This document shows positions 1,118-56,400 of a stretch of 58,183 bases of DNA, piece by piece. The stretch lies in the NCBI GenBank assembly GCA_032358255.1, contig JAULBX010025641.1:1-58183 (forward strand), written 5' to 3'. The notes below the pieces were generated by a model, which had not been told where the DNA came from, ran no database searches, and worked only from the letters and a program-made list of their open reading frames with translations. The stretch's first letter is position 1; each line of letters starts with the position of its first letter. Source of the DNA: Heterotrichella gracilis. Its lineage: Eukaryota; Sar; Xanthophyceae; Tribonematales; Xanthonemataceae. A program made the translations under genes and the position numbers.

Positions 1118-4100
1118 TTGAGCACCAGTACTGGCCACGTTTTCAAACCCACGAGCCACACCACACCAAGCGACGGCCTCCTTCACAACATGTTGGGGCG
1201 CAGCGCCATGGGCTGCGTTTCCACGGAATGCTGCAGTACTTCATACAGTAGGTTGACCCAGATGGAGCCTGGTGTGCACCGGTTGAAGCTCGGCCAACGG
1301 GAGGTCAAGGCTCACGGGCAGTGTGCAGCTCGGCGGTGCAGTGGCGGTCCTGCTTCGAGCCTGCCCTCTCCACTTTCCGCAAGGACGAGCAGTGGCAGAG
1401 CTGTGTTGCCGTCAATAAGCGGTTGCCAATCACAACCAGCTTCCTCTCTACCGCACCGAGAGCATGGCAAGGGGTCAATGCAGCAAACATCCACGTCCAG
1501 ACCAAACAGGCTGCCCACCAAGCTCCAATGCGCAGCTCCTCAGGAGTCGGTAGCCACAGAGGAGCTAGCCACGCCACTGGATCACGACCCTAGCGGTGGA
1601 AACCCTTCTCTGGCCGGCCTGCAGCAACCCATAACGCTCAACCTGCAAGCAATTGCCCCACCCACCTCAGAGCAGTCTCCCCACCCACAGCCACTGCCTG
1701 TCCCCCCACACCTGCACCTTGGCCCCACAGCCACAGCCACCCACTTAAACGCCACAGCCACCCACCCAGACGCAACATCCAGCCAACCAGGCGCCACAAC
1801 CACCCAACCAGGCGCCCTACCCACCGATGCAGCCCTCCAGCTAGAAGCAGCCCTGTCGGGCTCCCCGGATGGGTTCAGGCAACCTGCGCAGCAGATCTAC
1901 CCATCCTCCCAGCGCAAGGAGATCAAAGCCTCCTGGACGTCCCTGGTGCGCTGGTCCAAGCTGTTCAGGCTGCGGGGTGACAACGGCCAACATGTACTAG
2001 ACCGGGTGAGCAAGGTGGTCATATTCGGAGGGGGCTCCTTTGGCACCGCCATAGGCTCCCTGTTGGCGCAGCAGAAGGATACCCTCCAGGTGGTGCTGCT
2101 CCTGAGGGACCCCCGCACCTGCAAGAGCATCAACGAGGAGCACAGGAACGCAGAGTACCTGTCGGTGAGTGCGTGGGGTTTGACTATCCATGGCCAGTGA
2201 TGTCCCTATCGTTTGGATTGCCATGTCAAGCGCTATGCAAGCTGCACTGCTTTGGCTAGTTCGGACGTTATGTGCTTTATGACACCAGTGATGTCCCTAA
2301 CCGGTGGAATGCCATGTGAAGCGCCATGCATGCTGCACTGCTTGGGCTAGCCCGGGTGGATGGGAGGCCCTCCCCATTTTGGTGCTATGTGCCACCTCTA
2401 TACCTGGTTCCTCTCACAATCCACCCACCCACACCCACCACACCCAACCACACACACACACAAGTTGCCATGAATATGAACGCATTCCAACCATGACCCC
2501 CCCTCCCGCCACGCAGCAATTCACCTTGCCACCCAACCTGACAGCCACCACTGACTCCCGGGAGGCCATCACCGGTGCCCAGTATGCCATCCACGCGGTG
2601 CCTGTGCAGCACAGCCGAGGCTTCCTGACTAGCATCAAGGTGGGGACGTGCTGTTTAGGGGCTAGGATGCAGGGTTTAGGGTTTAGGGTTTCGGGGCATC
2701 CACACGGTGCCTGTGCAGCACATCCTTGTTTTTTTGAACATGGCATGTGCACCATTGTCACAGTTTTCACCGCGGTCCACTGTACCTGTCGAAATTCAAA
2801 TCGCGGCACCTGCATGTGCCCAAACTGCAGCATCTGCTTGCGGAGCTTGCGCATCCCCCACGAGACACCGCCACTACACAGCTGTTGACCATGGTGGCAC
2901 CCATGCACACACCCACACACGCCCGTGCACAGTGTACACCATGTGCTCGGCACGCCAGGGCTCTCCCTCGCGTACTGCTACCTCCCACCCCCTCCCACCT
3001 CCACCCTCACCTCTCCCCACACCCACCCCACCCGCAGGACATCCTGCCCCCCAACGTGCCCATCGTGTCAGTCAGCAAGGGGCTGGAGACAGGCACAGGC
3101 CAGATGATGTCGCAGCTCATCCCCTCGGCACTGGGGCGCAAGCAGCCCACCATCTACATCTCGGGGCCATCCTTTGCTGAAGAGGTCATGTCGGGGAAGC
3201 CAACGGGGCTGGTGGCGGCATCAAAGGTAGGAAAATAAGAGTTGAGAAGTGATGGCGCACAGGGTGGGGGGGATAATAGGGGGGTCGGGGGACGATGTCG
3301 GTGGCAGCCTCAAATGTGGGGAATCATGACACGGTGTGCGTGGGAGGTGGGGGCGTGGGGCGCAGGGTGTGGGTGGGGGGGTAGTGGTGCGAACAACCAA
3401 CGGGGCTGGTGGCGACTTCAAAATTGGACAACTGGGACAATGCGATGCAGGGAATGTGGGAGGTAGGGGTGCGTGGAGTGTGCGGGGTGGGGGCGCCAGT
3501 CCTTCAAAGGAGGGAGAATGGTTCCTGGGGGCGGCAGGGCCCAGTCTGGAGCAGCAATTGTGTTACTACTGTGCACATTGGCCATTACCAATTGCGCATG
3601 GGTTGGCAGCAGCACAGCCCCACCCTACCCACACGCTCCACATGCTCCATCGACACCCACCACCATCATACACACGTTCCCCACACCCCACACTCACCCA
3701 CTCCTTCTCCCGCAGGATGCCAAGCTGGTGCGCGAGGTCCAAATGCTGTTTGCCAGCCCCACCCTGCGGGTGAACACCACCTCAGATGTGACGGGGGTGG
3801 AAATCTGCGGGGCCCTCAAAAATGTGCTGGCCATCGCCGCCGGCATTTGCGAGGGCCTGGACCTGGGGCACAATGCCATGGCGGCGCTCATTGCGCAGGG
3901 CTGTGCGGAGATCAGGTGGCTTGCGGTGAAGATGGGGGCCAAGCCGACCACTGTCTCGGGGCTGTCAGGTGCGCACAAAGCATGTGGCTTGCTGTAAAGT
4001 TCTGATCCTTGACATTAGACATTAGATTTGAAGTTGAAAGCCATAGTAATTATACCTAGAGCATCATTCACCACGACCATTGCCCAGAATTCAGGAACAC

Positions 4101-5164
4101 TACATGATGATCGTGACCATCAGCATCATTGCACGATGATCACCAGCACCACCACACGGCATCAACGTCATTACATGGTGATCATCAGCCACACCGCATC
4201 AGCATCATTGCATGATGGTCACCACCACCGCCACACGCTCATCCCCCACGTGGTTACCTGGCGGTTGCACTTGTGTGCAGGCCTGGGCGCCACCATTCCG
4301 GCGATCATCATTTTGGGTTGCACAGGACCCCAATTGGATCACGCATCATGCCCACAATTAAACCCAATTATGGGCCTATTGAATAAAATTGGGGATGATC
4401 ACCATTTTAGTATGCAGACATAGTAGTGCATTTCTCAACCATCTCTTCTCACGCGCCGTGTGCACTTGTGCGCAGGCTTAGGTGACATCATGCTCACCTG
4501 CTACGGCAGCCTGTCTCGCAACCGCACCGTTGGGGTCAAGCTGGGCAAGGGGCAAAAGCTGCAGGACATACTGGGGAGCACGCACCAGGTAAGGGATATC
4601 TGGGGTTAGGGCTTTAGGGGTTTAGGGTTCAAGCTGGGCAAGGGGCAACAACGGGGCATACTGGGCAGTACGCACCATGTGAACCTTGATATCGCCTTGT
4701 TGGGGGTAGATGCACCGGTTTTTTGTGGCAATTCCAAACGTCTGCCTCACCTCTGGAAAGGTCCATGTGCTGGGATCAGGTCATCACATTCCTTCTGCAT
4801 ATCAACGTCACAGTTTGCTTCTAAAAGCAGCTGCATGCCTGCCCCATGTTGCTGATACCATCCCGAGGAACGACAATAGCACGTGTGCCCAACCCATCAC
4901 TTGTCAAACTGTCAAGCTTGCAGACTGCATCTCCACAGGTGTAACCTAAACCCTTAACCCTAGACCCAAAACCGACCCCTGCCTGGCTCCCTGTCGCAGG
5001 TGGCTGAGGGTGTGGCCACCGCGGGTGTGGTGGTTGGCCTTGCCCGCAAGTACAAGGTGCAGATGCCTGTGCTGACGGCTGTGGCGCAGGTGCTTGATGG
5101 GAATGTGCTGCCCAAGGAGGCTGTGTGGGAAGTGATGAACCTGCCGCAGATAGAGGAGCAGTAG
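1118..5164 (+). CDS. GPDH: NAD-dependent glycerol-3-phosphate dehydrogenase, plastid-type, six exons
   Basis: It reduces dihydroxyacetone phosphate to sn-glycerol 3-phosphate with NAD(P)H for glycerolipid and glycerol synthesis. Exons are 1118-2164, 2517-2639, 3038-3226, 3716-3968, 4476-4588 and 5000-5164, all phase-consistent, giving about 629 residues. The Rossmann motif [10 protein letters not shown] lies near residue 309. It is followed by the family motifs [27 protein letters not shown] (with the catalytic lysine) and [12 protein letters not shown]. The C-terminal helical domain ends at the TAG. Compared with bacterial GpsA (about 330 residues) there is an N-terminal extension of roughly 300 residues, rich in Ser, Ala, Thr, Pro and Gln. 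It may contain a transit peptide and includes short imperfect T-A-T-H-P repeats. The start at 1118 is the first in-frame ATG, but ATGs near 1190 and 1208 are alternatives. Plastid location is inferred. Catalytic identity is secure; the extreme N-terminus is not. Confidence 0.9.
2671..2727. repeat. Degenerate copy of GPDH exon 2 next to telomere-like units
   Basis: Inside intron 2, three TTTAGGG-like units at 2671-2692 are followed by about 30 bases closely matching exon 2 at 2585-2616 (core GGTGCCTGTGCAGCAC). The copy is in the same orientation and lies downstream of the exon it copies. Confidence 0.75.
3299..3425. repeat. Two degenerate copies of the 3' edge of GPDH exon 3
   Basis: The exon 3 end at 3199-3230 (core CAACGGGGCTGGTGGCG) reappears at 3398-3425 and more weakly at 3299-3322, both in intron 3 downstream of the real edge. 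The copies have lost the GT donor context or changed it. Confidence 0.6.
4080..4235. repeat. Degenerate CATCATTGCATGATG minisatellite in GPDH intron 4
   Basis: Roughly 45-50 base units built around CATCATTGCATGATGATCACC recur about three times, mixed with CAC/ACC triplets. The core TGCATGATGAT/ATCATTGCA is partly self-complementary. It is followed at about 4262-4300 by a weak copy of the exon 5 acceptor region (GCACTTGTGTGCAGG compared with GCACTTGTGCGCAGG). Confidence 0.5.
4597..4682. repeat. Copy of the 3' edge of GPDH exon 5 with telomere-like units
   Basis: About 50 bases at 4629-4682 repeat the exon 5 end at 4538-4592, with AAGCTGGGCAAGGGGCAA conserved. They directly follow GGTTAGGG/TTTAGGG-type units at 4601-4629. 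The copy is on the intron side of the real donor. Confidence 0.75.
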
Positions 5165-7006: not shown

Positions 7007-10000
7007 TTAGTTGGGGTTGAACTGGCACGTGGGCTGGACGCAGGCTGCAACATAGAGAGCAGGGTCAAATTAGCATCAGCCATGATTATGCGCAAATTAT
7101 ACAATTCACAGACAGGTAAGCGCACTAGAACATTTGGGTTGCAACGCGCAAGACAGGTGATGCACATCAACAAAGTAAACAACAGGTCCCACTGGGTGCA
7201 AGACACGTGAGCAACAAGGATGACATCACACAGTTGATAAATTATCGGGACATGGCCCCACAGCATACAAGCTGTAATGGATGGTGCAATTTGCAACGGC
7301 AAATACGTACTGGGCAGGTTGCCTGGGCAGGTCATTGTGGGCTGAGTAGGAAGGGCTGGCGGGGCGTCAATGTTGGCCACATTCTGCAGTCAACACACAG
7401 GCGTCAAGGGGAGGTCGATGCGACCATCCAACCACAATGGCCTCATGATTCAACCATCAAGTTGCACAACACAATGGGACCAAGGCACTGCTGAGCGGCT
7501 GCGAATGCACACTGAATTGTGGTCACGAACAGCATCGTGGTCACGAACAAAAGCAGGTGAATTTAATATGTATATCAATTTCAATTTAATGCAAAATAAC
7601 TCCAGCGGATGTTGCCATCACCCACCTATTTCCAAGGACAACTAGCACACCGTTTACCTGTAGGGAGCAGAACAGGGACAGGGTCTTGCAGTTGCCGGAC
7701 CCAGGGGGGTTACACAGCGTCTGGGTCATCGGGGTGCAGCTGGTATCCCACTCATACCAGTAGTCCAGCCACCTCCGATCCCACAGCACCAACCCGTTGC
7801 GCGAGAACTTGGGCTGTGGCGAGCCTTGGCCTGCACAGGGTAGGTTTGGGGTTTAGGGTTTATGGTTCAGGGTGAAGGATGCCAATGTGGTGAGCCTTGG
7901 CCTGTACCACAGGGTGGGTTTAGTGTGAAGGATGTCGATATGGTGAGCCTTGGCCTGTACATGGTGGGTTTAGGGTTTAGGGTAAAGGATGTCAATGTGG
8001 CGAGCCTTGGTTTCTGCAGGGTGGGGTTCAATGTAATGAGACAGCGTGACTATGTTGGAAGTGGCAATCAGGATGTATGGAGGGCAAGCGCATAACAAAT
8101 ATGTGCTTCCTTGTGAGGTTTTAAAGTAGGGGTCTTTAGAGACCCCGAGTAAAATACCGAGTCATTTCTGAATTTGACTCATGAGGAATTAATACATTGA
8201 TGTGGTCCCAATGACACAACCAATATCAATGCACTGTACATGGCAAGCCGACAGCACCCACGCACCAGAGTCCAACATCTTGAAGTACAGCCATCCATTG
8301 GCACTGTCAAAGTAGTACTTGAGGCCGTTGGGGTCTGACATCATGGCGGATAGGCTGTTCACACTGCAATTAAAAATGTGAGCAAGGTCATTTAGGATCA
8401 GTCCCAATGTAGGATAAAATATTTCGATGTGCATGCGTTTCCTGCGGAACACCAGCAGGCATGGAAATTTTTCAAAATTTCATGAAATCGTCCACCCATA
8501 GCTTATTGTGCTAATGGTAGATGCAACGAACTTACTTGTAAACCGACAAAATTAAATCAAGAGATTGCAAAGGACTGCACTACATACCTGGTAACAGCCG
8601 CCGAGTTGCCACACCACGATTGCCACTTTGACACCCTGTTGAAGTAGTTGAAGGTGGTGCCAGGGGGGTATCGGAGCGCCATGTATGCGGGGCGGTCAGG
8701 AGCCTGCTGGGATATGAAGATCTTGCCAGACTTGGGCACCGCGCGGCCAAGGGTGGGTGACGTGAGGCCAGAGGCGGTGAGGTTGTAGTGCCAGTACCAC
8801 CCAGTGTAGCCTGCAGTTTGGAATTTGAATTTTGAAATTGGCAATATCAATATTGCGTTGCCAGTGCCACCCAGTGTAACCTGCCAGATTGTGTTGCCAA
8901 TTCAGCAGCTGTAGGATCAAGATGCATATGTTATACCAGCCAAGAGGACAATACAATGACGAGTGTGAGCCAATAAAAAAGCATGGCCATTGCCTGCCAA
9001 GTATGGATGCAGCACTCTCTAGCACCCAACCCTAAACCCTACACTTCCTTGCATCCAACCCACTGCTTGGCTCTCACCTGTCACCCCAGTGTTGCCCTCA
9101 TTCCTGGTGATGTCCAGAGCACGGATGTCTGCCCCTGTGTACCCAAACTGCCGGACCTGCAACCCACATGAAACACAATTCAGAGTAGAATCAACTGGTA
9201 AAAGACAGGAAAAATGGTGTGTAATTTCAATACAATGGAATGTATACCCAATAGTTTCTGACGTGCTCAAAAGTAATATGCCCCCGTACATACAGAAGTA
9301 ATACTCAGAAATGCAGATCAATTGATACTTTATCTTGTGTGAGCATGGCAGATAAAAGTAGGAAGGCCAACACGGCAGCGCGGGATCATCCTTACCTGGC
9401 CAATCTTGGACCAATACCCGGAGGTCTCAGATGACCCTGTCCCATCATTGTAGCTATTTGTGAAGCCAGGCAGCGAGAAGTCAAAGCGCGCCACCTCCTG
9501 AACCCTGTTGATCTTGCATAGCCACACGTTCCAGTAGGTCTGCGGGGACACACCAAGATCAGTGGCCAATCAGGAGCAAGGATGGCCCCGCTTGGCAGAT
9601 GCATTATGCTGTTGTGTTTGGGTTCAATTTTCAGACTGTTGTGTGCGTTGGATTGCAGTTGGGGACCGGGGGATCTGCTCTCGATGGAATTCAGACAAAT
9701 TGAGCAAAATCGCTGACAGGCTTCCAGGCGGAAAGGGGCAAAAAGCAAGGGAAACACAGCATAGGATTTAAACATCGGATTTAATCCGGAACATGCAGGC
9801 AAGTGTCAAAGGATCCTGAGAATGAGCCTGACACTCGCTGTCATATAGATGAAAAGTCATCCTCACATTCATGGAGCACATGTTGTCGCCAATCCTCCAC
9901 CAGTTGATGTTTGCAGCAATCAGCATCTTTTGATTTGCACCAAGCAGATTCGCAGAACTACTCGCAGTCCCATCCCAATCTGCAACCACCACATCAGCGC

Positions 10001-13000: not shown

Positions 13001-16000
13001 ACTACCCAAATTCAGCCCCAAGCCCTTCCCGATCCCTCAATACCCCACGCACGCACTTGTACACCGAGCAGTCCTGTATGAAGCTCGCACTCCCGTTCTG
13101 GTCTGGAATCAGATGGTAGTGGAAGGGGTAGCGCCCCAGCACATTTAGCTGGCCCCCCCGCTCCGACATCACCCCCGAGAACCGAGCCAGGGTGGTTGTG
13201 AGCTGCATGTGGTAACCGATGGAGGATGTGTCGTTGATGTCTGTGCGCATGACCAGGCTGCGGGAGATGAGCGCCACCTCGCAATGGTACTCGGGGCCCC
13301 TGCAGGCGGGGATTTGAATCAAATATAAGAATACAGGGGAGGAAAAGATTTATTCTCCCAGATGGACTAGATTAGGTTCCGGTAGATGAGGGCCACCTCG
13401 CACTAATACTCCGGGGCCCTGCAGGTGGAGATTTGCACACCACGTAAAACATACGGGGGAGGAAAAAAGATTTTACTAACCACAAATAGGCGTGGTTGGT
13501 GTTATCGGGGATGGCCATGGTGGCCCACATTTGGGCTTTAGGATGGGAGTGCGCTCACCCGTAGTGGCTGAACAGCAGAGCCTTGGTGAACGTCAGTGAC
13601 TTGCCATTAGCAGACACTGCCGCAATCTGCATGACCTCGTTTTGGTTTGTGTACACGTCCTTGAGGATGCTGGTGGTGATTGCCACAAGCTGGCCAACCC
13701 TCCAGTTCACAGCAGCCTGCACAAAACACAGTGTAATCACGTCAGAAATATTTACCCCACAAAGTAACCGCCCCATTTTCCCCCTTTTTTTGGTAATTAC
13801 CCACAGCGATTACTGCAGATACTTGTGACAGTTATGCACAGTAGGAGCGAGACATCGGCCTGACCCTGTCCATCACATAGGGCATCAGCACCTGAATGGA
13901 ATACTCGCATAAGGGCAGGGCAGTGCTTGCCGCATGGCCATACTGTGCACATTTGGGAGTACATCTTCGAATGCCCATCCATCAACCCTCAACCCTAAAC
14001 ACCCCGTGCCCTCCCCACCTGCAAGGTGATGGTTTTGCTCCCAATGCCTGCCGTGGCCGCCAGGCGAGTCCATGTGGGCTTGAACAGCGCCCCATGCAGG
14101 TCCACCTGGGAGGTGGTAGCCACCGCCAGTAGCCCAAAGGATGAGGCTGCCATGCCGGAGTACTTCTTGAAGTTGAGGACTATTGCTTTGGCCAAGCGGC
14201 ATGTGGGTGCGCCGATGGCTAGGGTGCCGCTGACCGCAAGGGTGCCCATGCTCAGCACCATGTCTTGGTCGGCCAAGACGAGCTGTGGGAGGTAACGATT
14301 GATGGATTTCAATGCTGGAATCAGTAGCAAAAATGGATTGCATGTTTGTTATATCTGCAATAATTAAATTAATCTTATCTGTTTAAAAATACTTACAAGA
14401 TTTGTTTGACAGTCACTTTTACAGATTCTGCTCCATTAACTTGTATACTGCGTTTGCCATGTGGGGTCATTGCCATTGGGGACTAATGGCAGAGATGCAA
14501 ATTTTCAAGACAAGCTGCATAACGAACATACTCATACGGGGGCGACACGCACACCCTAGAAGTTCAATATGCGCCAATGACACAGCAAACTTCGACTCCA
14601 GGGGCAGCCCTCAGCACCCCTTGCCACCCACCTTGCTTGTGGCTGGGATGGTGATGGAGTTGTAGTAGGTGGCTGCCGCTGTGCTGCAGGCGTCAATGAG
14701 CACCGCGGTATTTGCGGGCAGCACCACCGATGATCCAGTCCCAGGGACTACGCCTCCCGGCCACAGGCTGGGGCTGTCCCAGCGCACAAGGCTGGGATCC
14801 CAGAAGGGGCAGCTGGTGCGGGTGTCGCTGCCCTGGAAAGACAACACAAAAAATACAATTTACAACATAAACCCTAAGGGTCGAAACCTTCCACGATAAC
14901 ACCTTGTGCTGCACATGTAAACTCCTATGTCTATAGGATGACATAGTGGTATGCACTATATTTGTGCATATGTTGTAGTATGTACAACGTGACATACTTA
15001 GATCACGTTGTACAAACCCGTGCTCAGCAGGCCTGTCAGATTATCACTGCCGTTTGCAGCCATTTGTGATTGAGCCGTATGTGCTGCTGTGGATGCCTAG
15101 GCCCCAAGCTAGGGTGATTGTGCCTAGCAAGGGTGTAAGATACTTGCCTTCAGGATAGGGAAGGAGCAGCTGCCTGCGCCAGTGTCTACAATGAGTGGAC
15201 TGGGTGGTGGCGGGCGTGGGGGTGGTGGCCGTGGGGGTGGTGGCTGTGGTGGAAGCTGCGGTGGCGATGGAGGCGCCGGGGATGGGGGTGTGGGCGATGG
15301 TGGCGCGGGAGATGGGGGCTCGGATGCAGGTGATGGGGGCGCCGGGGATGGGGGCGTTGGCGATGGGGGCATTGGCCCTGGTGGTGGTGACCGTGGTGGT
15401 GGGTGTGGGCGTGGTGGTGGTGATCGTGGGGGTGGGTGTGGGCGTGGTGGTGGTGATCGTGGTGGTGGGTGTGGGCGTGGTGGTGGTGGGCGTCGGTGTG
15501 GCGGGGGAGGCTTTCGCTTGGTGGGTGGTGGTGGACGGCGTGGAGGTGGCTTGCGCACCACTTTGTGTGGCGGAGGCTTGTGGACCGCCTTAGGCTTCGG
15601 GGGCGGCTTGCGGGCACTGCTAACCTTGACAACTCGTTTCCTGGGGGTTGCTAGTAGTCCCCGCTTGTTGCCTTTGACTGTCAGCCCCATAAAGTCCTGC
15701 TGGTGCGGCCTCAGCCTCAGCTTTGGTTGCTGCTTTTTGGAGGCTGTTGTGTAGGTGCTGCTGTCCAGCCCGTCAGGTATGGGTGCGGGGTTCACCCCCA
15801 GGCAGGCGTCCATGCTGTCATACGCCCCCCAACCTGCAGCAGCCAGGTGGGTTTAGGGTTTATAGGGGGTTGACCCAGTGGGATGTGCAAACTGTGGGCA
15901 GGATGGGTGGCTAGCGGATCGGTGCAAAGCCACATGTAATTGTGTGTACTGCCCACTTGAGATGGAAGCACATCATCCAGATCTTGTGCTGCAGGTTTGT

Positions 16001-41264: not shown

Positions 41265-44200
41265 CTACGACGCCTCCGCCCTCACCCCACCCAGCCCCTC
41301 CCCTCCCGCACCCACAATCACCCTCAACACCTCACTCACCACCCCGTCATTCTGCAGAATCTCCCCATGCACCACCCCTGGGTAGGCCCGCACATGCACC
41401 GCCTGCGACTGCCGTTTGCCCCATCCCCGGCAAATCTCCAGCGCCTCGATGGGGATCGTCCCATCCCCGTTTGTGTACTCCACGATTGGGGAGTCGGAGA
41501 AGTCCCGGGTGGTAAATGTGAGGTGGGAGAGGGTGTCGACGTGTGTGCCGTAGAAGCAGTGTGTGATGACATTGGGGGACGCGTGGGTGAAGGTGTCACC
41601 CAGGGCATCCCAGACCTCAGCCGCCTGCGGGTGGTGGGGTGGCAAAGTTGACATCAACAGGAAAATATTATGGTATGTGGTGAAATAGCCATGCACCCGC
41701 AGAGGCATGCACCACATCCAGGAGTGAGGTGGATCCATCGCATGACATCACATGGCGTCGTTCTACATGAATTGCAATTTAATTCTAACTTTATTATAAA
41801 CCTTAAGTTAAAAAGGGGCCAATTGATGGCATGCAATGGACATGACCAACTCAACCCTCAATGTGGTGCAGCAGCAGTAACAAGAAACATACAATTTTGA
41901 ACAAGCTGCACCCTGCCCTAGGTGCACAGCCACGCCCCCCCCCCCACCCCCCCACCCTCTCTGTCACAGAACCGTCACCCTCCCCACACACCTGGCTCGC
42001 TCCCGCATCCCGCATCATGTCCCCCATGTCCGCCCCACCATATGCCCTCCCCGTTGCACTATTGCGCACCCACACCCGGTCCCCAAACAGCCCCGGGGAG
42101 GGGACTATCCACGACAGCACTGGCAGGGATCGGAACAGTCCCAGGGAGCTTGCCCTGTTGAACCAGTAGGTGGGGAGGCCAGTCCACACGCCTGACAGGA
42201 GGCCCACGGCGCCGTTCACTGTGCCGCCCCAAAACCCTGCAAGGGGACAAGGAAACCCTTTTTACTTGGCTGTGCTGGGCCAAGCCCCAAACAACAAGGG
42301 CAATGTTAACTGTGCCATTCGCAGAACACAAAAAAGGCAGAAAATGTCGCTTGTGACAAAAAATAATTTGCTTCAGGAAGTGGAGTCGTTGAAGAGGAGG
42401 AATCATGCCAAGGGTAATAAGATAATAATCGGCCTTATTTATATCTTATTACCCTTGATTGTGTTGCCCAAATACTCTAAGGTACTCCCCCACCCCATCC
42501 TTCCCCCACCCTTCCCACCCACCCTTCCCACCCACCCACCTGACAGCGACACAAACCCTAACCCTAAACCCTAAACCCACCTGACAGCGACACAAACGCC
42601 GCCACATGGCGCTGCTTCCACTCCTCCCCCACATGGTGCTGCAGGAATGCAGTGATGTAGGGCGCACCCAGCGACAGGGTCACCACCACACATGGCCTGC
42701 CCCCATTGGCTGCAACCAAGGCCTCCACCTGGTGCCTCAGCCGGTCAAAGGAGCCGCCAGGGGACTGGTAGGAGTCCAATGCGAGCCTGCACGGGGAGGG
42801 AACAAGTTTTTTGGAGGATTATGAGACTCGCCTGTTTCGGTCCCCTGCAATTGCCGACAGGAACTTGTAGGCATCCAGCAGAAGGGCGAGGAGGGGGGGG
42901 CAAGGGCATGATTGGCCACTCTTCATGGGAGGTAGTTGTGTTTGACGCACACGAGGGAAGGAGCTGGGGGTACGTTCGCTCCCACCTTGGGCGCCAAACC
43001 CCAACCTCTCCTCCCAAGGCAGAAAACCCTAACCTAGGGTATTTCCCCCCACCTCCAGTCATACGCATGCGCCACCATGTCCTTGTCCCTCTGCCAGCCC
43101 ATTGACTCCAATGCCTGCGCCAGTGGCCCGTACACCATCACCTTCCCGTAGGGGTCCAGGGACATGGCGGCCTGGAAGGTGGCCACGGGGCGGACGAAGG
43201 TGCCCTGCAGGGAGGTTTAGGGTTCAGGGTTGGGATGGAATGTTGGGCAGAATGTGAAGCAAAGGCGTGGCGGAGAGCCACCTCAAGAAGGTGTGTGGTT
43301 GTGCCCTCCTGATTTATATATTAAACACCTCATTGTGCCAATGGAGCATTCTATGTCAGATCTAGCAAAGAACCCATCGATCGCTCGTTGCGCGAGCAGG
43401 ACTGTGCACTGCATTGTCTGCTAAAGTAATTGAATTCAAACGTTGGTGTGTAGAATGCAAGGATTGGTGTGTCGGGCCCCCACCTGTGGGCCATGGTACC
43501 TCCCCGTTGTTGGATCCCTTGTCATCCCCATGTCGCTGGCAAAGCAGTCAAAGAACCCCGGCGCCAGTGCCAGTGGATTGAGCCACAAGGGCAGCCAGCG
43601 GCCCCATGAGTCACGTGGGCAGTACCAATGGGGCACGTTGCGCCTGTGGGTGTGGTGGGGATTGAGGAGGGGATGGAGCAGAATGCTTGTGATTGAAAGG
43701 TAGGTTGGTGAGGTGAGGTGAGGTGCTAATGTACCCCTGGTGTAGGGCAAGGCCAAAGATAAAACTGCTTGGGGATGAGGTTGGTCCCAACATCATTTGT
43801 GACATTTTGAGACCGAGGGCTTGGCAGCAGTGTGGTTGAAGGCGGTGCCAAAGCTCTGGCAGGGGTAAGCATTGTGATCCGACATGGCAGCGCAAGCACA
43901 TGCAGCACGCACAACCTCATCAGCAAATGCAATCCCAACCAAACCCCCCACAGTTACAACCAAACCCCGTGCAAGGGTTTCCCGCACCTGTTGTTGAACT
44001 GCGCCTCCAGCTGCCCTCCCGACAAGGGGGGCACAAATACCACTGGGCTGCGTGGAGAGTTTTTGAGCGCACCGCTGCGCACCGCGGCCTCAAGGTCGGG
44101 GTCCAGGCGTACTGGGTGGGGTTTGGGAGGATACCCTACCTGCAGGCATAGGCAACGCTTGGGGCCATGAAGGAACAGTATTTCTTTCAGTCCCCCTCGC

Positions 44201-46538: not shown

Positions 46539-49500
46539 ATGTCCTACAAGGAGAAGCACCGGTCCCTGCACCACCTCAGCCAGAAGGGGGTCGATAGCAA
46601 CGGCTGGGTGGAGAGCCTCACTCAGCTGACTGACGAGTCGCCTGCCACCCAGCTGCTGCACCATGGGGCACAGGTGAAAACCCTAGCCTAAACCCTAAGC
46701 CCTACCCTGAACCCTGCAATCTACAAACTACTGTCAAGGTACCTCCAACCCAGCTGCTGCATCACGGGGGACAGGTGGAATACCCTACTGTAACCATAAG
46801 CCCGAATTGCTGTTGAATGGACTTACCACAAAAGGTGGCCGCTGTAGTGCATTACACTCTCACCTGACCTGCAGTTGACCACCGGTGCCAGGGGACTAGA
46901 TTATGACTATTCTAGTCCCTCTGCCACTGTGCCCATACCATCCCTTGTAACTTACCCCCGTTCTCCTGCCCCTCCCCCTTGCAGGCCCCGCCACCCGCCC
47001 CCCAGCCGGCCACCGACCCATCCTTGGCCACCGATGACGTCACCCAAACCCTGGGTGGGCTGAGCCTTGCAGGGGAGGGTGATCTTTCCCCCTTGGAGGA
47101 GTTTGACACCCGCCTGCAGCACGCCCTGGAGGCGCTGGCGGTGGAGGTGGGTGGTGTGGCTGGTGGTGGTGGGTGGGTGGTATTGCTGGTGGTGATGGGT
47201 GGTGTTGTTGGTGGTGGTGCGGGGTGGGGGGCAGGCATATGGGGATGATGGAAAATGGAGAGACAATCATTTTTGTGGGGGGCTGTTAGTGCACATGTGG
47301 GCAGTTGTGGGTGGTTACCTGTGGGCGCGCAAGCATCTTGACTGCCCGGACACTACCCACACACTCACGCGCCCTGCAAACATATTCTTGTACCAAGTAT
47401 ACCATGGGTATCACATTGTGTACCATGGTGTGTTGTGCCGCGTTCCCACCATAACCACCTCCAACTCCCACCCAACCTCCCAGGTGCAGCTGGTGGGTGA
47501 ATCCCTGGTGGAGGTGGGCACCCCCGGGGGCTGGGGGCCGCCCTGCCGATCAGAGGAGCAGCTGGACAAGGTGATTGCAGCGCTCAAGGTGAGGTGAGGG
47601 ATTCCGGGGGTGGAATTTGTGTGGACCCGTGCCATGGCCCTTGTCACATACAGGTGTTGCTTATGTGGCAATCGTGTTGTCATGTGTTTGTCACGGCACA
47701 TGCGTTTGTCATGGCATGTGGCTGATGTGGCATGGGTTGTGTGGTTTCAGGCGGCCATGGCGGATGCTGATGCTGACCTGGCGGTGTTGAGGAGGCGCCA
47801 GGTGGAGGACATGCTGGCGCAGGGGGGAGGTAAGAGGGTACATGGGTGGGGATGGGGGGGGCCGAACCCAGGGTGTGTGGGCGGGTAATGTTGTGGGTGC
47901 GAGGCTATGGCGCATTATTAACGCTTATGCAGCATCAGTACAAGCTAAACTACGAAAGATGGAAATGCTGCCGCAAGATTGTGGGCATCGATCATTAGCG
48001 CTATGTCATTGGCACCATCATCATGAGCATCACATTATACAACATCATAGACCACCATTGGTAATTGGCATTGGCCACACCCCATCCCATCCTCTCGCCA
48101 CGTACCAACACAGCATCCCTTCCCTCTGCACCCCACCATTATCTCACGCTGCCATGCTGGCGCACGCCCCCAACACCCCCTCCCTCCCCCTCTCCCCAGA
48201 CACCTGCCACGCCGCGGATGTGGTGGTGCGTCGCCAGGCGGGCGTGAAACACCCCCTTGAGGTGCGGGTGGCCATCATAGGCAACGTGGACTCTGGCAAG
48301 TCCACCATGGTGGGGGTGCTCACGCGCTCCATCCTGGATGATGGCAGGGGCCTGGCCCGCTCCAAGGTGTTTAAGCACGACCACGAGCAGGCAACGGGGA
48401 GGACGTCATCCATTGGCCAGCACAACTTATGCGTGAGTGGCGGCGGGGCAGGAGGGGGGTCCTGGTTTGTGTGGGGCTGTGGTGGGTTGGCTGTGCGATG
48501 GAATGGCACACACCTCACCGACTCACACACCCTGCATTTGTGTGGCACGTACACCAATGGATGCGGTGCACCCCTTGCACTAGCAGCCTATGCGGTGCAG
48601 ACATGCACCCTTTGTGCATGTGCCCTCTGAACACCACACCTCTCACCCTACGCTTCACCCAAACGGCCAAGCATAGCCTGGAAACCTGGAAGGCTTTTGC
48701 ATCTGCATCCCACTGCCTGTAGGCTTCTCTTGGTCTATGGCCTAACCTCTCCCTGCCCCCCCACCCTTCCTCCAGCTCGACAGCTGCGGCCACATCCTGA
48801 ACGACTCCCTGTTCCGCGGCCACTCGTGCGCCGACTACATCGCGCGGTCAGCCAAGGTGGTCACCCTGGTTGACCTTGCGGGCCACGAGAAATACTTCAA
48901 GACCACAGCCTATGGGCTGACGGGGCACATGCCGGACTACGCGTGCCTCATTGTGGGGGCGAATGCAGGTGGGGGCAGGGGATAAAGGGGGGATGGAGGT
49001 TTAAACTGTGCGCTTGCCAATACAATAATTGGTGTATGTAATTGGTGAAATTGTCTGAGAAGCAAGGAGGGCAGGGATGTCCTAGGAATGGAAGGGTGTA
49101 GCGCATGGATGGCATGCGTCAGCACGAGCAGGAAGACACCTCTTGCCAAAGCATTGTTGGCATGGACAAGGGTTATAATATAATATTAGGATTATTATCT
49201 GGTTACATCTTATTACCCTTGGCATGGATTGCAAATTGCAATGCACACAGGGGGTTGTCTGCAGGCCCCCTCCCCGTTTCCCGTTACACCCCCCCTCCCC
49301 CCACCTGACGCCCAAGATCCCGGTTTCCTTCGTTATCAACAAGGTGGACATTTGCCCTAAACCCTAAACCCTGACCAGACAGCTCGTTTCCTAGCACCAC
49401 TCATGTGCCAACGAGACCCCGCATCTCTGCTCTGAGGTGCTTTCACACCAAAAGAGGGTCCCCGCCCAGGCCACTGTCGACCCTAAGTGGTACTAAATAT

Positions 49501-52297
49501 GAGGGGTGTGGGATAAACCAGCCAGCTACTGAACAGGGCCGAGCCTGCTTGTCTGGATTGTGCTGTTATGAGTGTGTCCGCCTCCCTGGGTGGTTCAGAG
49601 CATACTGTTCCATTCATTTGTACTGCCAGTAGTCAGGTGAATGGACCAGTATGCGTTGTACCACACTGTGAGGTGGACAAACCCAAAACAACTCAATTCT
49701 AGACAAACAAGCTCGGCCCTGTTTACTAACTGGCTGTTTACCCCACCCCGCTCACACCCCGTTCAATACCCCCACCAGCAAGAACCTCTACCTCCCCCTC
49801 GGGCTTGGGTGTCGTGCTGGCCGTCAAGATCTCGGGGGGCTTGGTGGTCATTGCGTTAAACCCTAGACCCTAAACTCTAGACTAGACTGCTTGTTTCCTG
49901 TTTAAGGCCCACTCACCCCTCCTCCCTCCCCAGGCCTGGTGGGCATGTGCAAGGAGCACATGGGGGTGGCGTTGGCCCTCAAAATCCCCGTATTTTTTGT
50001 GGTCACCAAGGTGGACATCTGCCCCGACCACGTGCTGAAGCACACCCTGGCCACGCTGCACGCCATCCTCAAGAAGCCAGGCGTGCGCAAGCGCCCCTTT
50101 TTGGTGCGCACCCGCGACGACGTGCTGACCTGCGCCGCCAACATGGGGGCTGACAGCCTGGCGCCCATCTTCCTTACGTCGTGCGTGACTGGACAGGTGG
50201 GTGCCGGCTAGCATCAAGGGTGTTGGAAGAGTTTTGAAGTGGTTGTGTACGTTGCTAGAAGATAGGTTGTCGGGGGCACATGTGCGAATTAAAGGCATCA
50301 GTACAGGGGTTGACGTCCTGACCTGTGCTGCCAACATGGGGGCGGACAGCCTGGCGCCCATCTTCCTCACATCATGCGTGACTGGATAGGTGGGTGTGAT
50401 GATGATGATGGGGGCTTGCGGTGTTGCGAATCTGGAAAGCTGCGGCCAGTAAAAATGGGGCATGAGAATAATGCATCTGGCAGAAAGTACTGTACGCGCA
50501 ATACTATTAGTCCAGCAATATATAAAAGCTACCTTAACAGCAGGTATTTCCCCCCCTCCCAACCCCCCAACCCCCCAACCCCTGTCCTGATCCCCCTCCC
50601 CCTGGTCCCTACAGGGCCTGGAGCTGATCCACCCCACAAAGAAGAATTTTCAATAAACACGTATACCCTAATAACGCTTTTGTTGGTTGTGTTTCTTATA
50701 TATGTTCAAATCCCCCCCCAGGGCCTGGAGCTGATTCGCCTGTTCTACAACCTGCTGCCCCAGCGCCACAACTGGCACGACAAGGAGTCGGAGGCAGCGG
50801 AGTTCATCATCGACGAGACCTTTGGGGTCCCGGGGGTGGGCACCGTGGTGGCGGGGACCGTGAAAAAGGGGGTGCTCACCACCAACGCCAACCTGCTGCT
50901 GGGGCCAGACATTGCCGATGGCTCGTTTAAAATGACCGCCATCAAGAGCATCCACTACAAGCGCCTGCCGGTGAACAAGGTGAGGACAACCGGAAGTCGT
51001 AAGCCGTAGTGTACCCTTTGACCCCGAAACGACATATGACGTTGCTGTGGCAGGTGGGTGGTGGAGGGAAGGCTGTGAGGGGAAGTCGGAACATATTTGC
51101 ATACATAGGATGCTGGATATTATAGGACTAGGGGGGTGTTTCAGTTTGTGGTTTTCTTTCCATTTGGTCAAAATTTTCGTTTCCTCTTTTCGTAGGATTT
51201 GATCGTGTTTTGGAATGTTTCCTGCATTTGGAGCGCAACTTGCTCTTTGCACGCCTCCCCGGGACCTGAAATCGCTCCACCCGGGAGTTGCCCATGGTCT
51301 ACGGACTGCGGCGGGCTTTCCATCATTATTCTGTTATTCTGTTATAGGATGCTGCGTGGCCCAATCAGCATTGCCATTGTGGCGCCACCTTGCACTGCAA
51401 AGCCTCAAAGTGGCGCCATTGCAGTAACGGGGTGCTGACTTAATTGTGATAAGTATGAACTTCCCATCCACTGTACACCACCCACCGCCCAAAACCATCC
51501 CCACCCGCTCATCTTCCCCCCCCCAATCCCTGCCCCAGGTTGTGGCTGGTCAGACCGCCGCCATCGCCCTGAAGAAGGTGAAGCGCGGGTCTGTGCGCAA
51601 GGGCATGGTGCTGGTGGATGAGCGCAGCCAGCCGCAGGCCTCATGGGAGTTTGATGCGGATATCGCCATCCTCACGCACTCTACCACCATCCAGCCAAAG
51701 TACCAGGTGCGCGGGGAGGGGTGGGGCATGCTTTAGGTTTGGGGCTAGGCTGGGTGGTGGTGCATGGCTGAGGGGTGGTGGTGGTGGTGGTGCATGCGTA
51801 GGCAAGGGCAGCGGACATGTAGGTGGTTGTATGGGGTAGCAGCACTCCAGCTGCTGTGTGGCAAGTGACCGTGCGCACTTGGACCTAATTTAGGGTATAG
51901 GGTCAGATTGTACATTATTGTACCCATGAGCGCCCATCCACACTCGCACACATGCACCCACATCCATGCCCACCCACTCCATCAACACACCATCTCCCCT
52001 GCCGCCTGCAAGCCTGGCCGCGCCCCACATACAACACCATACCAAACCCACAAATATGCACACCCGCACCCGCACCCACACCCACCACCCTTGCCCCCGC
52101 AGGCCGTCATCCACTGCGAGATAGTGCGCCAGGCCGCGCGCGTGGTGGCCATGGACCGCGAGCGCCTGCGCAGCGGCGACCGCGCCTGCGTGCGCTTCCG
52201 CTTCCTGCAGCGCCCCGAGTACATCACCCCCGGCTCCAGGTTTGTGTTCCGGGAGGGCAGGACCAAGGGGATTGGGATGGTGGTAGAGAGCAGGTGA
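46539..52297 (+). CDS. GTPBP1: GTPBP1/GTPBP2-like translational GTPase, ten exons
   Basis: A relative of eEF1A and eRF3; animal GTPBP1/2 act in mRNA surveillance and rescue of stalled ribosomes. Exons: 46539-46673, 46985-47146, 47484-47588, 47751-47829, 48200-48432, 48776-48968, 49934-50196, 50722-50979, 51539-51706, 52103-52297, in consistent phase, 596 residues, close to the family size. P-loop GNVDSGKST, switch I region GRTSSIG, G3 DLAGHEKY and G4 TKVD are intact. They are followed by two beta-barrel domains ([29 protein letters not shown] end [11 protein letters not shown]). The N-terminus is acidic and helical. The stop codon TGA overlaps what would be a GT donor (AGCAGGTGA), and a degenerate copy of this exon end follows at 52401. 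Start chosen at the first ATG, in the good context CCACCATGTCC. Introns 6 and 7 contain several copies of exon 7 and 8 edges. Confidence 0.93.
46690..46785. repeat. Copy of the GTPase exon 1 end after CCCTAAGCCCTA-type units
   Basis: CACCCAGCTGCTGCACCATG at the exon end is repeated as CCAACCCAGCTGCTGCATCACG at 46744-46766 including the ACAGGTG donor. Degenerate CCCTAAA units at 46681-46710 lie between. Confidence 0.8.
49167..49221. mobile_element. Mini hairpin element, copy 2, with 7-base flanking direct repeat
   Basis: The element starts CAAGGGTTATAATATA and ends CATCTTATTACCCTTG, matching the terminal repeats at 42409-42457. It is flanked on both sides by GCATGGA, as expected of a target-site duplication. 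It lies in intron 6 of the GTPase gene. No transposase is nearby, so it would be non-autonomous. Confidence 0.7.
49311..49890. repeat. Two degenerate copies of GTPase exon 7 with CCCTAAA units
   Basis: At 49311-49356 a copy of the G4 region (CAACAAGGTGGACATTTGCC) runs straight into CCCTAAACCCTAAACCC. At about 49817-49857 a weaker copy runs into TTAAACCCTAGACCCTAAAC. Both are upstream of the real exon at 49934. Confidence 0.75.
50311..50390. repeat. Copy of the 3' end of GTPase exon 7
   Basis: Eighty bases repeat 50117-50197 with few changes (core CCAACATGGGGGCGGACAGC) down to GACTGGATAGGTGGGT. A stop codon replaces the final Gln codon. It lies directly downstream of the true donor. Confidence 0.9.
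50602..50640. repeat. Copy of the 5' edge of GTPase exon 8
   Basis: CTACAGGGCCTGGAGCTGAT at 50609-50628 duplicates the acceptor and first codons of exon 8 at 50717-50736. It lies about 107 bases upstream. Confidence 0.85.
51281..51346. repeat. Dispersed repeat, copy B (GTPase intron 8)
   Basis: CCGGGAGTTGCC, CTGCGGCGGGCTTT and ATTCTGTTATTCTGTTAT match the repeat in PreP intron 3 at 18284-18360. The two loci share no other sequence, so this is a true dispersed repeat and not part of the exon-edge copying. Confidence 0.65.
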
Positions 52298-53420
52298 CGC
52301 GGGGGAGGGGCGGGTGGTGCGGGTGGCGCGTGGGCGGTGTCAATGGGTCCCAGCCAGGCTGCGCGCCGGGATGTCGAGGGTTGATTTCTAAGGTTTAAAA
52401 CAGACATCACGCCAGGGTCCAATTTTTGTGTTGAGAGAGGGCTGGACCAAGGGCATTGGGATGGTGGTGGAGAGCAGGTGGCGGGGATGGGGGGTGGCGT
52501 GTGGAAAGTGTTGGGAACCAGGCGTTGGTAAGTCTGTTTTTGCACCTGTACATGTGCTTGTATTTTGTGGGGAAAGGAACAGAAAAAATTGTCAGGTTTG
52601 GCTTTTCTCTCCAGCTGCCCATGGCAATGTACCTTTTGTATGTTACTTCACAACTAGTTGTGTTTCTTGCGTTTATCTGTGTGTTGCTAGACTGATGCGG
52701 GTGTTGTGGACAACCTTGTGGCCCTTCCAACCTTCCTTAGGCTAGGTTATTGGCCTGGCCCGGCTGATTTTGAGGGGTTCTTATAAGTACTCAATAATAG
52801 CTGGTCTTTTGGCAGACTGAGTGTGTATTACGTTGTCAACGAGTATGACATCTGAGGCGGAGTAACCGTATTTGATGGTCACTGTGACTGCCAGACTGCC
52901 ACACTAAGTATTGTGGAGCGCCCTGTGGCACAGTTGCGGCATGCCCAGCTCTTGTAAATGTGAATTGCAATATTGCTGGCTTGTGGTGTGCCGCCGTGTG
53001 TGGGGAAACAGAAACAGAACAGAATAATGATGGGGTGTCCCCCGCCGTGTGTGGGGGCGTTCTGTTTCTGAGTGCATGCAAGTTGCACCTCCCCGTATTA
53101 TCACACTGATACAAACGCCTCCAAGCCACGTGGGCACAATGTTTAGAATTTCAAACCAACGCCTTTGTTTAAACAGAAGCTGCTGCGACCTTGCAGTCTT
53201 GAGCGGTGCCTTCCGTTCTTATTTGTTGCAAAGCCAGGCTACTTCGTCTGCAGTGTGGAGGTGCAAGGTGTTCAGGTGTCTGTTGTACGAGCACCGCAGT
53301 GCACCGAACCCATTGCACCCGTGAACCACCCGGGTACCCGTGAGTCTACACTGGTGCGTCGTGTGCTCCTCAGAAAGTGCGTGTCACAGCCCAAAGGGCG
53401 CGCACCTGGTACATATCTCG
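52298..53420. other. Region between the GTPase and CDC6 genes
   Basis: At 52401-52480 lies a degenerate copy of the last GTPase exon end (core AAGGGCATTGGGATGGTGGT), past the stop codon. A TGTAA motif, the green-algal polyadenylation signal, occurs at about 52953. The rest must include the CDC6 promoter. No other gene is seen. Confidence 0.5.
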
Positions 53421-56400
53421 ATGGGCCGCACGCGGTCAGGCTGCTGCTGGGCCGCCCCCACCCCCACCTCCGTCCCCGCCCCACCCGCCACTCCCGCCAA
53501 ACGCAAGGAGCCCGAGGTGTGCACCACGGCAGCCATAGCTGCAGCGACACCCCAGCCCACCCAGCAGCAGCGGGCCGCAGGAGGAGGCGCAACCAGCTCC
53601 AGCATGGTGCCTGGACACACTAGAGGAAACGCAACCAGCTGTATCACAGCCCCTGGACCCTCTGGACCAGCGACAGGTGAGCATGAGCCACACACCTGTA
53701 TTGAGCAACGCATGCATGCATGCATGTTGCAACTCCCAGTACTGACTTGCCCTTTTCTGCTGGTACCAGGTCCAGGCCGTTATTGCAAGGCTCCGCAGTA
53801 GCTGTGGTCAGGCGGGGTGCTCGCCCCTGTGCCGGGAGGCGGAGGGTAAGGTCCTGGAGAAGCACATCACAGACAGCCTGAAGAACGCAACTGGCTGCGT
53901 TGTGTATGTTAGCGGTGTGCCTGGGACAGGTACGCGTACACATGCTGACCTACATGCTGTTTATAAACAGCATGTGTCTATAGAGGTTAGGCCCTAAAAC
54001 CTAATTTGCTGTTTTGCTGTTAGGGGTGTGCCTGGGACAGGTACGCGTACAGATGCTGACCTACATGCTGTTTAGGGTTTAGGCCCTAAAACCCAATTTA
54101 GGGTTCACGGGCTTGTGGCCGTTTCCAGGGCACTGCTGCAGCTGCCCCACGTGATGCTAAGACTGTTTAGGGTCTAGGGTCTAGGGTTTAGGGTTTAGGG
54201 TGGGACATACTTGGCTGCGCTGTGTATGTCAGTGGTGTGCCGGGGACAGGTGCGCGGTGGGGCAAAGGCACAGCTGCCAAACCAGTGCACACAGCCAACA
54301 CCACAGAATAACGTACTGTGGATGTAAACCACAAACTGTAAAGCCTAAACTCTAAACCCTAAACTGCCCCCCTGCAGGCAAGACGCTGACGGTTCACGAG
54401 GTGGCGCAGCGCTGTGCACGCACCGTGGCTGCACCAGACACCCCTCCGCCTGCCCTGCTGGCCATCAACTGCATGTCCCTGGACCAGCCGCAGCACGTGT
54501 ACGCGCGTATACTGGAGGCGTTTGACCAGGCATGCAGCACAGCACACAGGCCCTCATCCCCAGCGCAATTCTGCAGCCCTAGCACCAGCACCAGTGCCAA
54601 CGAGGGCCCCCCAGAGGCATATCTGTCTGAGCTCGAGCGCCTGGTGGCCCAGCCAATCAGGGAAACTAACGAAGTTAACCAGTCATTCCCCTCCCACACC
54701 AAGGCCCGGCGCCGCTCCTCCACTGACCGCTCCTCTCGGGGAATGCTGGTGGTGGTGCTGGATGAGATGGACCAACTGGCGCGGCAGGGGCATGAGGTGC
54801 TGTACACACTGTTTGGACTGGCGGCGGTGCCCTCCCGTCTGGTGCTCCTGGGCATTGCCAACAGCAGCCTCCTCCCAGGACTGGAGGCGCAGGGCCGCGG
54901 CCCACCCCAGGTGGTATTCCCTGCATACAGCAGGGACCAGGTAGCAGCACTGCTGCAGCAGCGAGTGGCGGGCCTGGCGGGGGCGGCCTTCCACCCACAG
55001 GCACTTGACCTGTGCGCCAAAAAGGTGTGTGCAGTTGCTGAGCACAGCTATATTTATGTAATGGTAAATTCAATGGAACGATTTAAAATACATAATTAAT
55101 TAATAAAATTAAACATATAGTTGCTATGCAAAGCTGCGCCACCATCATGCTTGTAGTAAGCTCCCGCTTGTGTAGCAAGCGCGCGCATTGCATGGGTACC
55201 ATTGGAATGCAAGGGTTGATCGGTGTGGGGATGGTGCGCAGGTTGCCAGCACTTCAGGTGACATGCGGCGCGCGCTGGAGGCGTGCCAGGTGGCGCTGGA
55301 ATTGGCAGTAGCAGAGGCGCAGCAGGCTCAGTGGCAGCCGGGGGATAGCCATGCGGCTGCAGCATGCACCGGTGTGCACCGCCACACGGCACAGCAGCAC
55401 TATGATTGTATGAGAGGTGTGATTTGTTGATATGATTTTTTGTAGATTAGAGTATTTGGGTTTGTATAGATGAGTTGGTGTAATTGATTACCTGAATGTT
55501 TCTGTATACTTTTACGGATTTGAATAAACAAAGCAAATTGAAATATCATTTATGTGTAAACAAAGTATAAACATTGCACTTGTGCGCATTTCCCACGGCC
55601 GTGCACGTGTCCTTGGTGTGGCCCACACTACACCTTGACCCCTGCCTTGACCCTTCCATTCCTGGCACAGGAGGCAGCACCCAGCCACATGTCGTGCTCA
55701 TCCGCCACATGGCAGCAGCCCTTGCAAGGGTGGTTGGCGGGGTGGGCACCAACTCAGCCACAGTGCAGGCTATCAAGCAGCTGCCGCAGCACCAGCAGCT
55801 ACTGCTCAGCAGGCACGAGGGTGCACCCACAGAGCCGGCAGTACACGCACAAAAGGTGATATCAATGCCGTACGTGGCATGCCATCCTGTTGTAACTATC
55901 ATGGAAAAGGGTTCCAGAAGATGTGCCAAGTCAGCTTATTCAAGTCACCATCCCTTCTACCTGGTCCCACAAGGTGATTCACCCTCCAGTGTGCATGTTC
56001 CCATCACCAGTTGACAGTTGCAAGAGTATTCACACGCACCATGCCTGGTTCTGAGCGTTGAAAAGCCATTCTGAATTTTTGGCAGGCTGCCAAGCTGGGT
56101 ATTGCTGGGCGGGGTTGTAGGTCACAGGCCAGCAGCAGCGGCCAGGTCAGCACCACCGTAGGCGAATTGCACGAGTCCTACCTTGAAGCATGCAAGAAGG
56201 TGCGCATGATAGTAAACAGCAGCGCATTGCATGTGCATGCAGACCATTAGGGCATGTCTGGGGCATGTAGCTGATGGTGCACCCACCTGACTAGCATTGG
56301 TTGTGCACACAGCTAGTTAGGGATTCATGATCCATAATACGTTTTCAAAAATCTTAGTATTGTGAACCCTACAGGTGCCCATCCCCACCGTGGACAGCAG

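Follow-up and report, generated by a model that had tools for sequence, protein, structure and literature searches.

The 58,183-nucleotide stretch analysed herein (hereafter the window) is one contig of the 68.5-Mb, 903-contig genome of the alga Heterotrichella gracilis. It carries nine genes, assigned by hand from predicted exons, and in the introns of eight of them the edges of the neighbouring exons recur as degenerate copies, frequently beside units of the telomere repeat TTTAGGG. To the window we joined a second sample for gene finding, namely 200 kb from another contig (C2), and a third sample comprised 30 three-kilobase loci, each built around one of the genome's 834 three-unit telomere matches, of which the first 30 in the list were used. 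Genes were predicted with an ab initio hidden Markov model gene finder, trained on 17 exons of the window and then self-trained, which returned 393 exons in the window and second contig. After removal of exons shorter than 60 bp and of one decoy, 282 introns remained (median 341 bp), 280 of them long enough for testing. The gene models were predicted without RNA evidence, which is the main weakness of the results on exon edges. The light-harvesting family has 43 exon-level matches in the genome, which indicates a photosynthetic eukaryote.

Exon edges are duplicated into the adjoining introns

For every edge, a test block of 50 exon and 12 intron bases was aligned to the adjoining intron, and scores of at least 32 were counted as matches. 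In the window and second contig, the adjoining intron holds a recognisable copy for 56 of 280 donor and 41 of 280 acceptor edges, compared with 4/143 and 0/145 for the middles of the same exons. The reverse complements of the edges matched in 1/280 donor and 1/280 acceptor cases, the edges of other genes in 6/8,400 and 4/8,400, and the intron flanking the exon on its other, wrong side in 0/162 and 0/161 (right side: 37/162 and 27/161); these four controls exclude chance. A preliminary description of this DNA had proposed that exon edges are copied into adjacent introns, in the same orientation, with copies of 5′ edges upstream and of 3′ edges downstream, and had set an excess over exon middles as its check; all of this was borne out. 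Introns with a copy numbered 24/74 in the window and 59/206 in the second contig, so that the pattern extends beyond the window.

When the thirteen predicted introns that read through in frame are excluded, copies remain at 55/268 donor and 40/268 acceptor edges, and 82 of 268 introns show a copy at either edge. Within the window we counted 27 edges with 35 copies, spread over eight of the nine genes. Two of these edges (37173 and 37471, with four copies) are gene-finder errors within one long coding exon; the remaining 25 edges with 31 copies agree with the earlier tally of more than 25 copies in eight of nine genes. The region concerned (36342–38729) is apparently a single long coding exon with repeats of ~33 and 90 bp that the gene finder split wrongly, and some predicted introns at 36–38.4 kb are false, as judged from in-frame read-through. 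Seven intervals that had been singled out as copies beside telomere-like units, together with 2671–2730, all match a nearby exon (scores 35–65) and contain telomere 7-mers, although one of them (49311–49371) copies an exon interior rather than an edge: it corresponds to bases 46–91 of exon 49934–50196, lies ~600 bases upstream and adjoins telomere units. A second copy of exon-interior sequence was read by eye at ~49800–49875.

Duplications are not restricted to exon edges. Non-edge blocks had copies in 21/236 intron-internal cases vs 5/257 intergenic ones, which indicates that duplications also arise inside introns, where internal direct repeats are above chance, as in staggered-break repair of the type described in Daphnia. 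Predicted stop-codon edges carry the same kind of copy in 7/35 cases and start edges in 1/22 (some predicted gene ends may be wrong), and a stop-codon array at 27585–27741 shows that duplication at coding boundaries is not limited to splice sites. Introns with copies are longer (median 398 vs 308 bp), as expected from the suggested intron enlargement, though a longer intron also gives more room for finding a copy; decoy splice sites are a further outcome, as had been suggested.

Anatomy of the duplications

The duplications take the general form D1–filler–D2, D standing for a direct repeat of ~20–130 bp that usually runs from the exon across the splice site into the intron, and the filler often contains (TTTAGGG)n in either direction. 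The splice site is crossed by 79 of the 97 best copies, so that most are tandem duplications spanning it, as had been claimed; the remaining 18 appear to be exon-only. The statement that all three rules (same orientation, expected side, splice site usually within the block) hold in every case was too strong. By eye, at least one apparently exon-only copy resumes beyond the splice site after a 5-base gap. Spacers measure 20–200 bases in 79/97 cases and are negative in 7/97, where the copy overlaps its original as in head-to-tail arrays. Among young duplications (copies of at least 90% identity; 23 rows, two events being listed twice), the block covers a median of 37 exon and 6 intron bases, and the intron parts total 211 bases vs 468 (sd 62) expected under random placement, so that in young cases the intron part of D amounts to a few bases only. 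Direct duplications of tens of bases are also what the CST/Pol alpha type of end fill-in produces.

Where a tandem duplication spans the limit of a coding constraint, one of its copies stays functional and the other, on the noncoding side, decays, and the orientation and position rules of the preliminary description mostly follow from this alone; confinement to introns does not. One locus of the second contig (L043, ~227880–228023; 127880–128023 in the joined stretch) contains a predicted intron of 144 bp, at the 3′ end of which the end of the upstream exon recurs at an offset of 154 bases, and is a candidate for an intron born through tandem duplication or else a mispredicted coding repeat.

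Telomere repeats accompany the copies

Runs of at least eight TTTAGGG units occur on 11 contigs (C70, C140, C173, C460, C607, C609, C660, C712, C717, C770 and C872) and likely mark true chromosome ends, since six of them lie within 200 bases of a contig start. TTTAGGG is the telomere repeat of this genome, which also encodes a telomerase RNA-binding domain, and the short internal arrays match the host's own telomere, as interstitial telomeric sequences do. Counting overlapping matches, there are 5,629 two-unit and 834 three-unit matches genome-wide. In 43 spacers (3,574 bases) belonging to copies of 85% identity or higher, hexamer enrichment is led by the telomere repeat, whose seven rotations occupy the first seven ranks. 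A telomere 7-mer lies within 100 bases of 56/97 copies vs 26.8 expected from matched introns without copies, which is the enrichment that had been set in advance as a second check, and a 10-mer accompanies 33 vs 8.7 expected. Telomere units occur in 61/83 introns with copies vs 83/199 without (Fisher p ~10−6), the former being also the longer introns.

The association was also approached from the telomere side, by searching 120 bases of flank around arrays of at least 13 exact bases in the window, second contig and 30 loci. Direct repeats flank 55 of 127 arrays, compared with 71/589 positions drawn at random in introns and 42/600 in the genome, while inverted repeats were found in the flanks of 0/127. 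With duplicates removed the count is 50 of 113 distinct arrays (52 with longer flanks). Such target duplication at array junctions is the trace of end processing associated with interstitial telomeric sequences formed in break repair. Junctions share at least one base with the inferred original at 6/9 array starts and 10/10 array ends, with one (starts) and two (ends) nested cases left out; these counts are tiny and lack a simulated null.

Telomere-bearing duplications concentrate at intron borders

Young duplications contain a telomere unit in 13/19 cases at edges, 4/18 inside introns, 1/5 in mixed, 0/1 in exon-internal and 0/5 in other positions; for these other positions the figure over all identities is 1/31. 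Scaled to target size, the edge excess over intron interiors is 6.5–7.3 fold at three identity cut-offs, and separates into 15.5–26 fold for telomere-bearing and 1.1–3.4 fold for telomere-free duplications. Because one copy of an edge pair is conserved, such pairs should stay recognisable for up to about twice as long, which would make for a detection bias of perhaps a factor of two; this does not absorb the telomere-bearing excess. The suggestion of a process aimed at exon–intron borders stands in part: the young telomere-bearing excess argues for it, while the rules of orientation and position are expected of any tandem duplication once the reading frame has to be preserved, and stop-codon edges behave alike.

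Array density amounts to 0.51 per kb in introns, 0.15 in other sequence and 0.02 in exons, and of the 30 first-listed arrays 28 (25 of them distinct) lie in predicted introns and two outside. Along the intron from 5′ to 3′ the values are 0.93, 1.06, 0.35 (mid-intron), 0.40 and 1.32 arrays per kb, with 0.06 far from genes. With telomere units excluded, GGG reaches 77 per kb over the 30 bases that open the intron and CCC 92 per kb over the 30 that close it, vs 25 (GGG) and 22 (CCC) mid-intron and 17 each far from genes. Predicted introns are likewise asymmetric in base composition, with 48% G in their first 10 bases and up to 45% C at their ends. Arrays per G-run on both strands span ~2.7-fold within introns (0.0075 to 0.020), and the intergenic value is four or more times below the lowest of these; G-run supply can thus explain the greater part of the concentration at edges, whereas it leaves the restriction to introns unaccounted for.

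Orientation of the telomere units differs between the two intron ends. In the spacers, sense TTTAGGG and CCCTAAA stand at 16:9 at donors and 0:17 at acceptors (Fisher p 1.4 × 10−5), and sense TTTAGGG is found in 0/41 acceptor spacers. Genome-wide, two-unit TTTAGGG and CCCTAAA number 607 and 365 within 30 bases after a 5′ splice-site pattern and 229 and 160 at 100–130 bases, in counts that include overlapping matches and a pattern that also matches false sites. By our own tally of the 30 loci, the 14 of 25 distinct intronic arrays that lie nearest a 5′ site divide 11:3. Multi-unit arrays in mid-intron stand at 10 forward to 11 reverse. If telomerase extends the G-run end of D, one end of which lies in the intron and the other in the exon, run densities would predict, post hoc, ~2.4:1 at both sides; donors roughly fit, and the more extreme acceptor ratio is as expected under selection against an AG ahead of the 3′ splice site. 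A simple rule that TTTAGGG points away from the exon was rejected, being strong at acceptors and weak at donors in the main sample. Counts from a simple 3′ splice-site pattern (1,068 and 870) were disregarded, as YNCAGG is also matched by the ends of exons (CAG before GT) within the copies.

Table 1 Duplicated exon edges and associated telomere repeats in the window. D, direct repeat.
Feature	Position	Strand	Identity and remarks
Donor edge of exon 2517–2639 (2588–2616), telomere units 2654–2688, copy 2697–2725	2588–2725	+	93% over 29 bp
Donor edge 3200–3225, copy 3397–3422	3200–3422	+	92% over 26 bp; spacer without telomere unit
Donor edge 4532–4590 including splice site, TTTAGGG at 4613 and 4621 in spacer, copy 4625–4680	4532–4680	+	83% over 59 columns
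Acceptor edge of exon 7658–7830, two threshold copies (best 7941–7965), telomere units between	7817–8030	−	
Acceptor edge 8789–8820, copy 8859–8891	8789–8891	−	88%
Acceptor edge 13255–13346, copy 13374–13466	13255–13466	−	79% over 94 columns
Donor edge 19443–19462, copy 19533–19552, telomere units of both senses between	19443–19552	+	95% over 20 bp
Donor edge 20753–20809, three threshold copies (one at 20953–21008)	20753–21219	+	
Array 21163–21182 flanked by two copies, D–telomere–D	within 20753–21219	+	96% over 27 bp
Acceptor edge 22987–23017, copy 22893–22923, sense CCCTAAA-type unit between	22893–23017	+	90%
Acceptor edge 24290–24372, overlapping copy 24215–24305, array 24313–24329	24215–24372	+	75%
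Acceptor edge 24869–24901, copy 24749–24780	24749–24901	+	85%
Donor edge 25048–25090, TTTAGGG-type then CCCTAAA-type spacer, copies 25151–25192 and 25243–25277	25048–25277	+	95% over 43 columns (first copy)
Donor edge 25668–25691, copy 25740–25763	25668–25763	+	88%
Acceptor edge 26053–26074, copy 25869–25890, CCCTAAA-type units between	25869–26074	+	91%
Acceptor edge inside 117-bp tandem array (2.5 copies by TRF; two at edge)	26434–26721	+	Spacer without telomere unit
Stop-codon edge of long gene in 32-bp array of 4.9 copies, into 3′ flank	27585–27741	+	
Donor edge 31237–31270, array 31214–31232, copy 31171–31204	31171–31270	−	85%
Donor edge 34867–34902, copy 34952–34987	34867–34987	+	78%; threshold score
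Acceptor edge 35694–35758, copy 35481–35546	35481–35758	+	74%
Acceptor edge 39485–39594, copy 39362–39473	39362–39594	+	84% over 113 columns
Cleanest case in window: 23-bp D, 42575–42597 (across donor site) and 42534–42556, 18-bp telomere filler	42534–42597	−	Identical
Donor edge 46641–46702, copy 46742–46803	46641–46803	+	81%
Donor edge 50119–50203, copy 50312–50396	50119–50396	+	91% over 85 bp; spacer without telomere unit
Acceptor edge 50719–50735, copy 50612–50628	50612–50735	+	17/17
Donor edge 52221–52317, copy 52404–52497	52221–52497	+	83% over 98 columns; spacer without telomere unit
Donor edge 53907–53963, copies 54018–54074 and 54212–54256, telomere units among copies	53907–54256	+	96% over 57 bp (first copy)

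Interpretation and alternative explanations

We consider it probable that the copies are tandem duplications left by the repair of staggered breaks in genes, with telomerase extending one of the ends, which would give the arrangement D–(TTTAGGG)n–D; the break repair with telomerase suggested in the preliminary description fits this anatomy. Telomerase prefers G-rich 3′ ends, and CST-Pol alpha/primase also serves telomeres. In the proposed sequence of events, a staggered cut would leave D single-stranded on both ends, and telomerase would extend a 3′ end with TTTAGGG, with a preference for ends that finish in a G-run. D and the added repeat would then be copied by fill-in, for which animals use CST-Pol alpha/primase, and end joining would yield D–telomere–D. 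One D would be exon, kept by coding constraint, while the other would decay in the intron and retain a decoy splice site, and repeated rounds would make the intron longer. The position of arrays close to intron ends would mostly reflect the abundance of G-runs there on the strand that directs its 3′ end into the intron, and selection against an AG ahead of the 3′ splice site would remove sense TTTAGGG at acceptors. As for why introns rather than intergenic DNA are affected, breakage tied to transcription is our preferred guess.

Several observations weigh against this account. Insertion in one step is presumed from a single genome, and 6 of the 19 young edge copies have no telomere unit. The junction counts are few, and the edges come from predicted gene models. 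Arrays of at least 13 bp lying up to 60 bases from 5′ splice sites in the window and second contig are evenly divided (8 forward, 8 reverse). The low intergenic density (4 arrays in 65 kb) is not explained by G-run supply. Adjacent forward-then-reverse vs reverse-then-forward pairs number 3 vs 5 at gaps up to 40 bases and 12 vs 6 at 40–150, so that extension of both ends, which predicts the forward-then-reverse order, found no clear support. As a natural empty site we sought a paralogue for one 5.7-kb piece of the window holding ten introns, and found no other genome match at E 10−10, the search having passed over simple repeats and words of very high frequency.

A bolder version would make exon–intron borders true breakage hot spots, opened in the course of transcription or of splicing, with telomerase and telomere fill-in factors as the regular means of repair, so that the machinery of telomere maintenance would be a main motor of intron growth and of decoy splice sites in this genome; we put it forward tentatively, as a possibility that we doubt.

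Ordinary tandem duplication by slippage, unequal exchange or telomerase-free break repair, followed by purifying selection, would make the edges a matter of survivorship and the telomere units bystanders whose accumulation in introns has other causes. It would account for the rules of orientation and position, for the copies at stop codons, for telomere-free young cases at edges (6/19) and inside introns (14/18), and for the strict tandem array at the acceptor in 26434–26721 and the seven copies that overlap the original alignment. We nevertheless judge it unlikely: spacers are mostly 20–200 bases long instead of zero and are dominated by telomere hexamers, direct repeats flank arrays far more often than random intron positions, and the edge excess is large with telomere units and slight without them.

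Selection for splicing offers another reason for the telomere units, in that TTTAGGG downstream of a 5′ splice site contributes G-triplets, and CCCTAAAC upstream of a 3′ splice site contributes a branch-like sequence and a C-rich tract, so that duplications carrying them near intron ends would be retained. The orientation of units by intron end agrees with it, as does the absence of sense TTTAGGG from acceptor spacers; CCCTAA, CCTAAA and TAAACC are enriched 12–45 bases before 3′ splice sites, albeit below plain C-rich hexamers. Selection of this kind creates no duplications, however, and multi-unit arrays are unbiased both at 5′ ends in the main sample and mid-intron, which renders it improbable as the main cause.

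Template switching or templated insertion by polymerase theta at breaks could account for the 18 copies that appear to end inside the exon, but we hold it to be very improbable, given inverted copies in 2/560 and wrong-side copies in 0/323 cases and exon middles copied in 4/288; the template-switching synthesis entertained in the preliminary description is accordingly set aside. A mobile or introner-like element with target-site duplication, suggested by a shared insert between direct repeats, is more improbable still, as D varies from ~20 to 130 bp, the telomere repeat is the only insert common to the spacers, the ten-intron piece has no second match at E 10−10 and the copies mostly sit some tens of bases away from the splice site without spanning whole introns. 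The near-identical introns at many loci that mark introner elements were not found, as judged from that one 5.7-kb piece and from telomere hexamers being the only strong shared spacer content.

Comparison with known systems

In mammals, short telomere arrays occur at internal sites, for which telomerase repair of double-strand breaks has been proposed, with duplications at 6/130 rodent, 4/25 primate and 3/66 horse loci and deletions as the commonest simple change (PMC2246262, PMC7215372). In-register microhomology with the repeat at the break has been reported as well (PMC2246262). The present arrays resemble these in being internal and in their target duplications, and differ in that flanking direct repeats attend 50/113 and that 28/30 first-listed arrays are in predicted introns, whereas 31% of human arrays are intronic, which their authors call compatible with random insertion (PMC2246262, PMC7215372); the placement seen here thus departs from the random intron and intergenic placement reported for human interstitial telomeric sequences. 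New introns in Daphnia are likewise proposed to be lengthened by direct repeats from staggered breaks, but those repeats measure 4–17 bases and, in the accessible text, telomere filler is not described, while ours measure ~20–130 bases and span exon edges (PMC4202315). Small direct tandem duplications also follow from the action of CST/Pol alpha-primase at breaks with 3′ overhangs, in work on Cas9-induced breaks in cultured cells whose accessible account does not describe telomere insertion (PMC8355091). Plant telo boxes place telomere units in genes, and telomerase acting at free 3′ ends during transcription has been proposed for them, but they are single units concentrated in 5′ untranslated regions, and their intron density in Arabidopsis is near the genome mean (150.7 vs 155.2 per Mb; PMC3022908). 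Direct repeats near intron splice sites also lie at exon–intron borders; they are 4–30 bp long and pair both ends of one intron, and the accessible text describes no telomere link (PMC11782384).

The opinion that no described system matches the pattern was hence too strong, since telomerase insertions with occasional target duplication (PMC2246262, PMC7215372) and staggered-break intron repeats (PMC4202315) are published. For telomere insertion combined with duplication at exon edges we found no report in the open-licence literature, outside which most subscription papers lie. The two components are known separately, and it is their frequency, their restriction to introns and their edge focus that look new.

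The origin of intron sequence is a standing question, and in this alga 82 of 268 introns still show the duplication of an edge, with telomere filler to label the repair event. If our interpretation is true, the genome would preserve a natural archive of telomerase activity at internal breaks, in which a preference for intron borders rich in G-runs can be measured, and would allow one to test how well splicing copes when its signals are duplicated again and again.

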